Source: Fibrobacter sp. (lineage in GTDB: Bacteria > Fibrobacterota > Fibrobacteria > Fibrobacterales > Fibrobacteraceae). Taken from it: a stretch of 64,000 nt of DNA. Within the stretch, counting starts at the first letter, position 1. Every line of letters begins with the position of its first letter. Shown piece by piece: positions 29,394-56,389 of the stretch. The stretch lies in contig JAFPWY010000010.1 in NCBI GenBank assembly GCA_017412605.1, positions 1-64,000 of the forward strand, written 5' to 3'. Under the pieces are notes generated by a model that was given only the letters and a program-made list of their open reading frames with translations, did not search any database and had not been told where the DNA came from. The position numbers were made by a program, and so were the translations under genes.

Positions 29394-31142
29394 GTGAAAA
29401 AATTGTTGGCGATAGGCTCCCTTGTGCTTTTTTTTGCAGGATGCTCTGAAACTTCTAGCTCCAGTTCATCTGAAAAACAGGATGATTCCGATTCGTATGA
29501 TAACTCCGCATATTGCCATGACAAATATGGCATTACGGAGGAGGATTCTTGGACGACCGACCTTTCTGACAGCAGTTATGTCGTAGATGGTCTCTGTGAC
29601 TATATGTCTATGTACATGCGTAATATGTTCTCCTTTTTTGCAAATTGCGTGTCTTCTAGTTTCAGTGAATCTAATAACCGTATTGAAATGGAAATTTCCA
29701 CTGAAAGTGGAACTAAGCATATTTGGACTGATATTTCTGGGTGTAAGCATAGGATAGGAAGTGCCGGAGATTTCAAGGATTGGGTTGCTAGTTTGAGCGA
29801 TTGGACATTTGATGATTGCGTTTGCAAAGAAGAAAACGGCGAGACCTACTATTTAAAAAGGAGCCCAAGAAAAGAGAAAAAAAGTTCCAGTTCTTCGACG
29901 GTAAGTTCGGAATCTTCGACACAAGTTTCATCGTCTAGTAAAAAAACGGCTCCGGCTGTGCAAAGTTCCAGTGCCATGAGTAGTTCAAGTGAAGCGCAGA
30001 AAGACAGCTCTGAAACAGACTACTCGTTTATTAAGGAACAATGTACAAGGAAAACTGCTAATCTGAAAGTTTCTTATGACGGGACATATTATGAATGCGA
30101 ATACTGGTATTTAAATTGGACCAAGGTTGATGAAGATTCTTTGCTGCCGCCAGAAAAAGAGGGGAAAATCTGTAAAGAAGATTTGTTCAATACGATGGAA
30201 GTATATGACAAAGATTTTTATGTCTGTGACACAATAAATGCATGGCGTTTGCTGAAAAGCATAGAGTCTGCTCCGTATAGATATAAGGATAGTCTCGGAA
30301 ACTGTGATACGATTTCTAATAAGGTTCTTCACTGGAACGAAGCGGATAGCGCGTTTTTTGGTTGCACAAATGTTGACGGGGTTGAAGAATGGAAACAGGT
30401 CATTGTGGAACCGTACCCTACTTACCTTTTACCGGTGTCGTTTGATAGGGAGAAAATTGCGGGTCAGAGTTTAGGTGATTCTTTGTATAAAGTAACTATA
30501 GATGGAATCGAATATCGCTTTTATTCCAAGATTAGGGGTAGTCAATATTACTTTTTCTTGACAAATGTGGTGATTGATGACGTTGATTATGCAGCAAGTA
30601 CGCGTGGTCGTCAAATATTTTTGCATGGCGAACTGGGAAACGATACTATTTTGTTGAATTCGATTCAAAACAAAAGTTCCTCGTTTGATGATTTTTATGC
30701 TGGATGGACGGAGCGCATCAGTCAAGATTGCCGTTGTGGCGGTAAAACCGTCGAAGTGAATGATTCTTTAGTCTCTGTCGTGCGCTATAAGGAAAGCGTC
30801 TATATGGATTATGAAACGGCCAAGACGTCATGCCCTAGAGGGTATCGTCTTCCCGACACGACCGAATTTAAGAGCTTCTTGAAATACAAAACATCCTACG
30901 CCCAATATCGAAATGATGCTCCGATAATTTGGATGTTTGGGTTAGACAGAGTAGCTTCTTGTTCGCCGCATTATGAAATATATGCGGATGTATTTTGGAC
31001 AAGTACCGAAAAGGATTCCGGAACGCAATATTGCTTTGAAACCGCGATGAATGGCGTTACTATGGATGAAAAAGCATCGCGCATTGTAGAATGCCCCAAA
31101 GACTTGTACCCTATGGTACAAACCCTCTGTATTCAAGAATAA
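29394..31142 (+). CDS. FISUMP-domain lipoprotein
   Basis: 582 residues from a GTG start with AAGGAG upstream. The lipobox FAGC is followed by Ser-rich linkers (residues about 22-30 and 165-205). The middle part has Cys-containing modules of about 40 residues (GKICKEDLFNTMEVYDKDFYVC...). The C-terminal part (about 330-580) is FISUMP-like: CRCGGKTVEVNDSLVSVVRYKE, TAKTSCPRGYRLPDTTEF and a terminal VFWTSTEKDS region. Base composition is more AT-rich than its neighbours. It lies 20 bases after the membrane protein gene, probably in one unit with it. Confidence 0.8.
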   Translation: MKKLLAIGSLVLFFAGCSETSSSSSSEKQDDSDSYDNSAYCHDKYGITEEDSWTTDLSDSSYVVDGLCDYMSMYMRNMFSFFANCVSSSFSESNNRIEMEISTESGTKHIWTDISGCKHRIGSAGDFKDWVASLSDWTFDDCVCKEENGETYYLKRSPRKEKKSSSSSTVSSESSTQVSSSSKKTAPAVQSSSAMSSSSEAQKDSSETDYSFIKEQCTRKTANLKVSYDGTYYECEYWYLNWTKVDEDSLLPPEKEGKICKEDLFNTMEVYDKDFYVCDTINAWRLLKSIESAPYRYKDSLGNCDTISNKVLHWNEADSAFFGCTNVDGVEEWKQVIVEPYPTYLLPVSFDREKIAGQSLGDSLYKVTIDGIEYRFYSKIRGSQYYFFLTNVVIDDVDYAASTRGRQIFLHGELGNDTILLNSIQNKSSSFDDFYAGWTERISQDCRCGGKTVEVNDSLVSVVRYKESVYMDYETAKTSCPRGYRLPDTTEFKSFLKYKTSYAQYRNDAPIIWMFGLDRVASCSPHYEIYADVFWTSTEKDSGTQYCFETAMNGVTMDEKASRIVECPKDLYPMVQTLCIQE

Positions 31143-52997: not shown

Positions 52998-54845
52998 ATG
53001 CCCAAAAGTTTTGTGTGGTTAACTGCCGTGTGTTCTGTTTTTTTTTGCAGCCTGTGGTGATGACTCATCGTCCAATGCGACAGGAGACCTTTCTTATGTC
53101 GACGAGGACGGCGAAGAAATAACCGTTGATGTTTCTACGGGAAGTTTCAAGGATCCCCGTGACGGGACATCCTACAAGACCGTAACTGTCGGCGAAAAGA
53201 CATGGATGGCCGAGAACCTGACTTACTCGGAACAAGGCAGCAACTCCGAAGAAAAGTACGGCTGGGGCACCGCTCAGGTCGTCTGTCCCGAAGGATGGCA
53301 CTTGTCTCTACGGGAGGAATGGCAGGACCTTTTTGAGACACTTGAAAATGTTTACGGGGATTCCTCCGGATGGGCGCTCAAGTCGACAAGCGGCTGGGAC
53401 AACGACACGACCGACGGCGAGGTTGTCAGCGGCAACGGTGGGAACATTCTCGGATTCGACATCGAGCCTACGGGCATTTGCAGGGGTGGCGACTGTCGCT
53501 ATAAAGGAAGCATGGCTGGATTCTGGACCATGTCAAAGATGGATCGTGACGGCTACGCCAACTACATCCGTTTCGAAACGGATCCGGACTGGCATTCGGG
53601 CGAAATTTACCAGGACGCCAGGTTGCACGTTCGCTGCGTAAGCGACAAGAACACCATTTTCGAATCACTCGGCAAATGCACCCGAGAAAAAGAAGGGACC
53701 ATCGGCGAATACGATTCCACCTTCTACAAATGCTCCGATAAATTCTGGGTAAAGGCAAGCCTAGATGAAGCGTTGAACTATAAGTTCGGCACATGCGATT
53801 CTACACAAGAAGGGAAAGTGTACGAGTTGAACGATTCCGCCGCCATTTGCAGGGCGAGTTCCTACGGAGATACATACTCATGGGATACCGCCACCATGGA
53901 AGAAGCCCTGGGAGAATGTTCCGATAAAAATGTCAAGGAAATCAAAAAATACAACGGACAGAAATACGCCTGCCACATGCTGACCTCAAGCTGGTACAGC
54001 TGGGAAGAGGCCGGTGCAAACGACCTTCTTCCGGAATGCAAGCAAAGCATCGAATTTAAAATCGACTATTTCAACGACACCGCCTACATTTGCAAGGAAG
54101 GATTCAGCAGCTATACCTGGCAAATTGCCACCGAGGAAGAAGAAGCGAAAGGCAAGCTGGGCGAATGCACCAGCGCCATGCAAAACAAGGTGGAAAAAAC
54201 CAAGGCTGGAGATTTTGCATGCGTCGACAATTCCTGGAAGAAGATGAACCAGGTGGAACAAGAACTGGGCCTATGTTCAGAAGACAAGAAAGGGTCGCAG
54301 AAAACAACTAGCAATGGAACATTCATGGCCTAGAGCGAACCATAAACATCGTTGCATTCGACAGCGTTTTATGGACGGACATGCGTTATTTCGAAGGAGA
54401 CAGCCCTTCCGGTTTCTATCCGGCATCGCGTTCTGTTTGGGAGTCGATCATTCAGGCCTTGACGGAGAGAGACCAACTTGACGAACTGTATCTGGACAGA
54501 GATTCCAGCTATTATGGATTAAACGTGTTCAGCGGAGCCCAGCTGGGGTTTTTCTCTTTGGGCGAAGAACTTACCAATTGCCGCATGGAAACGGTCGACG
54601 GATACTCATGCCTAGCGGGCAAAGGCTGCAATCACAATTACAGGGAAGTGGTGGTATGCAAACAGGCCGCGATTACGCTATCTAGAGTGGACCCGGATAA
54701 CAAGACATACAAATTTGAAAATCTTGTCAAATGTAAAGGCTGGATTCCCACAGGTTCTTCCAAATGCACCGAAAAACCCAGATCCGACAAGTGCATAAAG
54801 AATTACGGCAAATCTGACGATGCTAAATCCGAAGATTCGGAGTAG
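52998..54845 (+). pseudogene. FISUMP lipoprotein gene interrupted by two frameshifts
   Basis: From the ATG at 52998 the frame encodes a signal peptide (MPKSFVWLTAVCSVFF) but stops after 20 codons. A run of nine T (53038-53046) shifts the frame. With eight T the product would continue ...VFFAACGDDSSS, a perfect lipobox. The following frame stays open to 54333 and encodes a FISUMP domain (FKDPRDGTSYKTVTVGEKTW, AENLTYSE, CPEGWHLSLREEW, HVRCVSDK). After it come about five 40-residue modules with paired cysteines. It stops at TFMA where a cysteine is expected. A one-base shift there restores a frame (ERTINIVAFDSVLWTDMRYFEG) that runs to 54845. It is either a decayed gene, a phase-variable gene with added damage, or a product of sequencing errors. 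Confidence 0.8.
53038..53046 (+). repeat. T9 homopolymer in the signal-peptide codons
   Basis: Nine T where eight would keep the lipoprotein in frame. Such tracts are classic slippage sites. Confidence 0.85.
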
Positions 54846-54934: not shown

Positions 54935-56389
54935 ATGGCTCTACAGTTCTACAACACCGCATCGCGCAAGAAAGAAGTATTCACTCTCCCCGAAGGCGTT
55001 CCCGCCGTGCGCATGTACTGTTGTGGCCCGACGGTGTACCATTTCGCCCACATCGGCAACCTCCGCACCTACATTTTTGAAGACTTCCTGGTCCGTACGC
55101 TTAAGTACTACGGCTACAAGGTGAACCACATCGTGAACATCACCGACGTGGGCCACTTGACCAGCGACGCGGACTCCGGCGACGACAAGATGGAAAAGGG
55201 CGCCGCCCGCGAAGGCAAGTCTGTGTGGGATATCGCGAAGTTCTACACCGACGCTTTCATGGCTGACTGGCACCGTTTGAACATCCAGGAACCGACCCGC
55301 TGGACGCCTGCTACGCAGCACATCCAGGAACAGATTGACTTGGTGAAGACCCTCGAAGAAAAGGGCTACACCTACCGCACTAGTGACGGCATCTACTTTG
55401 ATAGTCTCAAGTTCCCGCGCTATGCCGACTTCGCCCGCCTCGACGTGGAAAACCTCCGCAAGGGTAGCCGCATCGACATGGGCGAAAAGAAGAACGCCAC
55501 CGACTTCGCTCTGTGGAAGTTCAGCCCGAAGGACAAGAAGCGCGCCATGGAATGGGACAGCCCGTGGGGCGTTGGTTTCCCCGGCTGGCACATTGAATGT
55601 TCCGCTATGGCTATGAAGTACAATGGCCCGACGCTTGACATCCACTGCGGCGGTACGGACCACATCCGCGTGCACCACACGAACGAAATCGCCCAGAGCG
55701 AATGCGCGAACGGCGTTCAGTTTGCCCGCTTCTGGATGCACGGTGAGTTCCTGCGCACCGCAAGCGAAGAAAAGCTAGAAGACGGCACCACCGAGCAGAA
55801 GTTCGGCAAGATGAGCAAGTCCAGCGGCGAATTCCTGACGGTATCACTCCTGATGGACCGCGGCTTCAACCCGCTCGACTATCGCTTCTTCGCGATTGGC
55901 AGCCACTACCGCAACTACCTGAACTTCACGTGGGAAGCTCTGGAAGGCGCGAAGGAAGGCCTGAAGAGCCTGCACAAGAAGACGGACCCGCTGATTGGCA
56001 AGGCTACCGCTATCACTAGCGACGCCGCCAAGGCTTTCCAAAACGAATTCAAGGATGCCATCGGCGACGACCTGAACATGCCGCGTGCTCTCGGTATTAT
56101 GAACACGATGCTCAAGAGCGATATCGATGACGGCGAGAAGGCCGCCCTGGTGGCCGACTTCGACCAGATTTTCGGTTTGAAGCTCGATGAGCCTCGCGAA
56201 GAATACGCCAAGAAGGGTGCGAACGACGGCGTAGATGTCGCAAAGATCGAAGCGCTGATTGCAGCTCGTAAGGAAGCCCGTGCCAACAAGAACTGGGCCG
56301 AAAGTGACCGCATCCGCGATGAACTCGCCGCGATGAACGTGGTCATCAAGGACTCCAAGGAAGGCACGACCTGGGAGATAAAAGGTTAG
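54935..56389 (+). CDS. cysS: Cysteinyl-tRNA synthetase
   Basis: 484 residues with CGGAGG upstream of the ATG. The HIGH motif is FAHIGN (residues 37-42) and the KMSKS motif is GKMSKSSG near residue 290. Zinc ligands include Cys30 in YCCGPTVY, the Cys in GWHIECSAM and the His/Glu in RVHHTNEIAQ. The C-terminal DALR-type helical domain ends in NKNWAESDRIRDELAAMNV. It charges tRNA-Cys. It has its own promoter and is followed by an intergenic repeat and a terminator. Confidence 0.96.
   Translation: MALQFYNTASRKKEVFTLPEGVPAVRMYCCGPTVYHFAHIGNLRTYIFEDFLVRTLKYYGYKVNHIVNITDVGHLTSDADSGDDKMEKGAAREGKSVWDIAKFYTDAFMADWHRLNIQEPTRWTPATQHIQEQIDLVKTLEEKGYTYRTSDGIYFDSLKFPRYADFARLDVENLRKGSRIDMGEKKNATDFALWKFSPKDKKRAMEWDSPWGVGFPGWHIECSAMAMKYNGPTLDIHCGGTDHIRVHHTNEIAQSECANGVQFARFWMHGEFLRTASEEKLEDGTTEQKFGKMSKSSGEFLTVSLLMDRGFNPLDYRFFAIGSHYRNYLNFTWEALEGAKEGLKSLHKKTDPLIGKATAITSDAAKAFQNEFKDAIGDDLNMPRALGIMNTMLKSDIDDGEKAALVADFDQIFGLKLDEPREEYAKKGANDGVDVAKIEALIAARKEARANKNWAESDRIRDELAAMNVVIKDSKEGTTWEIKG

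Follow-up and report, generated by a model that had tools for sequence, protein, structure and literature searches.

Does a run of nine T in the signal peptide of a Fibrobacter lipoprotein gene switch a surface protein on and off, or does it mark a gene that is being lost? The question is raised by positions 52998-54845 (plus strand) of the 64 kb stretch of DNA analysed here, hereafter the window, which comes from a 3.53 Mb Fibrobacter sp. genome in 15 contigs that is 99.5% complete; all base counts are those of the assembly. The gene belongs to the FISUMP (Fibrobacter succinogenes major paralogous) family and carries two frame breaks, one at the T run and one downstream. It is probably a recently inactivated, lineage-restricted member of this large Fibrobacter lipoprotein family, and one of about ninety genes for surface lipoproteins in the genome.

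Membership of the family, already proposed by the first-pass annotation, is borne out by the mature-protein frame (53044-54333, stop codon TAG at 54331-54333). This frame matches TIGR02145 with an E-value of 1.2e-29 (104.2 bits, against a curated cut-off of 41.65) and Pfam PF09603 with an E-value of 7.5e-13; it contains a FISUMP domain at about 53143-53646 and cysteine-bracketed modules. Like FISUMP lipoproteins in general, the gene shows the TIGR02145/PF09603 domain, such modules and the family-typical lipobox ACGDD. Unlike its intact counterparts, it has a signal peptide that is out of frame and a second FISUMP-like domain that is degenerate and lies in another frame. The genus contains 11 intact homologues with uninterrupted frames of 623-725 codons, and the two lesions are found only in the window gene. 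The intact secreted lipoprotein form is typical of the family here, although it is no part of the TIGR02145 domain definition, and the window gene lacks it: its T9 frame stops early and its tail is read in a different frame. In F. succinogenes S85, one FISUMP member is listed with the cell-envelope proteins that were found on the two cellulose substrates but not on glucose (PMC4619616).

The first break lies at the lipobox. The ATG at 52998 is preceded by GGAG, and the run at 53038-53046 counts exactly nine T, so that, as the first-pass annotation had stated, the frame from this ATG ends after 20 codons. This short open reading frame (52998-53060; MPKSFVWLTAVCSVFFCSLW*) consists of out-of-frame remains of the lipoprotein signal peptide, the tract being +1 relative to the mature-protein frame by comparison with the genus members G095 and G019. 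Tract length decides the reading frame. With one T fewer the same start reads MPKSFVWLTAVCSVFFAAC and yields the lipobox VFFAAC that had been predicted for eight T; this shorter reading, MPKSFVWLTAVCSVFF followed by AACGDDSSS, is as long as the signal peptide (MTKSLTLLMVACSAYFIACGDSS) of the G095 positional orthologue and aligns with it without gaps. A long T run is absent at the corresponding place from the orthologues of both G095 (TATTTTATTGCC) and G019 (TATTTTACCGCC), and the tract is also missing from two further relatives, G044 and G048. An alternative start for the mature frame was considered and rejected: with T9, neither the interval from the upstream stop to the tract nor the sequence beyond it offers an ATG, GTG or TTG ahead of the ATG at 53206, which is inside the FISUMP domain. 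No secreted protein would therefore be expected from this allele. Scans for promoters and terminators yielded no useful result.

The second break lies at 54308-54333. Its limits are two TAG codons, one in the second frame at about 54308 and one in the first at 54333, and the second frame then remains open to 54845. In tblastn searches the G044 and G048 proteins align co-linearly through both frames and change frame within this interval, and the ancestral gene was therefore a single frame. The remainder in the second frame (54312-54845) matches the C-terminus of the G044 protein with an E-value of 5e-12 and that of G048 with an E-value of 3e-7, and gives no Pfam or NCBIfam match. It corresponds to a degenerate second FISUMP-like domain, in which SPSGF stands in place of the CPxG[W/F] motif, whose cysteine the aligned relatives keep, beside a further in-frame gap. 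The first-pass annotation had placed a second shift near 54320, and the position holds; its size of one base does not. In eight intact relatives the distance from the last-module GxC to the VAVDS-type motif is 33 residues (99 nucleotides; G044 and G048), 36 residues (108 nucleotides; three relatives) or 38 residues (114 nucleotides; three more). The corresponding distance in the window gene is 74 nucleotides, which is 25, 34 or 40 short of all eight, each a deficit of 3n+1, and the alignment shows that the window gene lacks the Cys and Trp that close the last module. The spacing rules out a one-base lesion and points to a net 3n+1 deletion (25 nucleotides relative to G044 and G048) that removed these two residues and changed the frame. 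The break thus amounts to more than one miscounted base, although part of the difference from the relatives may be lineage divergence, and it stands whatever the actual number of T in the run.

Decay is favoured, as it was by the first-pass annotation, because the two lesions are independent and the second combines a deficit of 25-40 nucleotides with the loss of the Cys/Trp pair and of the CPxG cysteine, while the relatives are intact. The ancestor would have been a secreted protein with a lipid anchor, about 620-690 residues long, in which a signal peptide and a FISUMP domain were followed by several cysteine-bracketed modules and another FISUMP-like domain. Along this lineage, the net deletion and the lost hallmark residues would have damaged the tail, and the T run at the lipobox, read as nine, would have shifted the signal peptide out of frame. 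Ribosomes starting at 52998 would then stop after 20 codons and find no restart codon in the mature frame ahead of 53206; slippage of RNA polymerase on T9 may leave a trace of truncated lipoprotein. The two frame breaks, the intact relatives and the missing residues are observed; I infer the order of events, the loss of function and the reality of the ninth T. The GeneTack criteria treat a singleton frameshift that has no conserved site as a pseudogene or an error, and recurrence means at least five frameshifted genes (PMC3711429); by these published criteria the window gene would count as a singleton of that kind, a pseudogene or an error, rather than as a case of phase variation.

Three observations weigh against inactivation. 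Outside the two breaks the sequence is free of further stops over about 600 codons, which means either that decay set in recently or that assembly artefacts account for part of the damage. Amino-acid constraint is kept in the head of the protein (nonsynonymous divergence dN 0.37 against synonymous divergence dS 1.3 relative to G095), though this constraint mostly predates any lesion. Finally, the residues missing from the tail could reflect lineage divergence in a hypervariable region, the intact tails of G019 and G095 themselves differing greatly.

Homopolymer runs are common sites of indel errors. A miscounted T, with the signal peptide truly in frame and only the tail lesion real, is one alternative, and the good signal peptide of the right length that is obtained with eight T speaks for it. 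The state of the assembly argues otherwise, and this alternative is unlikely. The draft is good, and the genome contains 116 FISUMP matches in 98 stop-to-stop frames, nearly all of which start with an in-frame signal peptide, five of them with T8 tracts; a further FISUMP gene (C4:20870-21505, minus strand) contains a T9 that is likewise in frame. Among the FISUMP loci, to which this count of broken genes applies, there are just one other clear split (C4:36335-36978) and one remnant (C1:207676), and so few broken frames indicate that the family loses members occasionally and that widespread assembly indels are unlikely. The split gene, also indexed as L169:4535-5178, is frameshifted inside its domain and lies within a cluster of similar FISUMP genes. 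An error at T9 would, moreover, leave the second lesion unexplained.

Phase variation, in which slipped-strand mispairing would toggle the tract between eight and nine T and so turn the surface lipoprotein on and off, is what the first-pass annotation had envisaged for a tract of this kind. The tract does lie in signal-peptide codons of a surface protein whose frame it sets, its T8 reading matches the G095 signal peptide without a gap, and homopolymer switches exist in gut bacteria, for instance the G-tracts of Bifidobacterium pili (PMC9187656). Against this, the tract does not recur in G095, G019, G044 or G048, the other readable lipobox tracts show no frameshift, and a run of this length is no more than expected by chance. 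There are 71 exact T9/A9 runs in the genome, about 1.3 per 64 kb, with similar numbers in other members of the genus, which rules out an enrichment in T9; under a first-order Markov model, the window should contain about two A or T runs of at least nine. Among 87 lipoprotein signal peptides, taken from the window and the FISUMP loci, three have a run of at least eight T, against 2.5 expected under synonymous-codon shuffling, so that Phe-rich cores encoded by TTT account for the T tracts. The genus was also searched for T8 or T9 tracts with a lipobox-like sequence after them, and the matches were read frame by frame. All 11 other readable lipoproteins are in frame, a count that leaves aside about 10 further pattern matches whose loci were not read, and only the gene at 52998 is out. 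The in-frame cases are nine with T8 (position 29428 of the window, its relative in G079, C9:134465 in the same genome, and G011, G014, G049, G059, G067 and G006) and two with T9 (G046 and G066). The tract at 29428-29435 belongs to a lipoprotein gene at 29394-31142 of the window, where it encodes the lipobox region LVLFFAGCSE, and the G079 relative retains the T8. Together, the in-frame controls and the codon permutation rule out a phase-variable gene family. Nor does either tract state give an intact product: the ON allele would still end at 54333, about 180 codons early.

The comparison with established switches leads to the same assessment. As in the B. breve pilus genes (PMC9187656) and in H. 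pylori fliP and pldA (PMC11756786), the length of a homopolymer within the coding region sets the frame. Those are G-tracts, however, whereas the present tract is of T, nine long, not conserved and a single case in its genome, has a second lesion downstream, and is known from one assembly, at a single length. A literature search on Fibrobacter phase variation or on the word FISUMP found nothing on point. Switching at this tract is very improbable.

A further alternative keeps T9 and supposes that RNA polymerase slips on it. Bacterial transcription is known to slip on runs of nine A or T, and an extension from eight to nine can leave a gene partly expressed (PMC1088944); part of the mRNA would in this way regain the mature frame and encode a truncated lipoprotein of about 444 residues, which would retain the complete first FISUMP domain. 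The resemblance to the pseudo-pseudogenes of Baranov et al. 2005 is that a frameshift lengthens an A/T run from eight to a slippage-prone nine (PMC1088944). The window gene differs from them in its second frame break downstream, which slippage would leave in place, and in being known from sequence alone; its T9 site is not conserved either. There is only a slender chance that this explanation holds.

The gene does not look as if it had been inherited vertically as a whole at one rate. It lies directly before an intact cysS (cysteinyl-tRNA synthetase; 54935-56389, plus strand), as do the genes of G019 and G095, and because cysS follows in both of these the three are positional orthologues; the other members of the genus that were read have different genes there. 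Among the three, conservation is high over the first 240-310 residues and identity over the remainder falls to 20-60%. Residues 1-240 of the window gene are 62-88% identical to those of G019 and G095, and residues 241-400, which comprise modules, only 20-32%; over the latter segment identity to G044 and G048 is 42-50%. This contrast rules out a uniform rate for the whole gene and suggests either a mosaic, with tail exchange between paralogues, or very fast evolution of the tail. In the head the window gene is 49% identical to G044 and in the tail 31%, compared with 51% and 46% between G044 and G048, and by this measure the tail of the window gene has diverged beyond expectation. As a sign of relaxed selection, this excess has to be read with the hypervariability of the tail between the intact G019 and G095 genes and with synonymous sites that are mostly saturated. 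That the FISUMP lipoproteins of this locus are diversified surface proteins with a conserved head and an exchangeable tail, and that this strain also switches the head by T8/T9 slippage and has a functional truncated product of about 444 residues, is a prediction with very little probability.

In the whole genome, runs of at least eight G or C number just 13. One of them, a G9 run at L155:1550-1558 (C11:360089-360097), separates the start codon ATG of another FISUMP lipoprotein gene, which is intact (AAAGGTGGGGGGGGGAGTTATG), from an AAAGG that resembles a Shine-Dalgarno sequence; those relatives that were read lack a run of this kind at the site. It is a better candidate than T9 for slipped-strand control of expression. 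Further G or C runs of eight to ten occur at L215:1499-1508 and L224:1502-1509; some such runs lie near or upstream of gene starts, an example being located 79 nucleotides before a FISUMP lipoprotein open reading frame of 474 residues.

The window gene is a warning against taking a single out-of-frame homopolymer for a switch. The control that separates slippage in a dying gene from a switch is the set of all other lipobox tracts in the genus. Should a mixture of T8 and T9 prove true, it would give a lead to phase variation in this cellulose-degrading rumen genus. The pattern of conserved head and variable tail among positional orthologues may be a better clue to the role of the FISUMP proteins.
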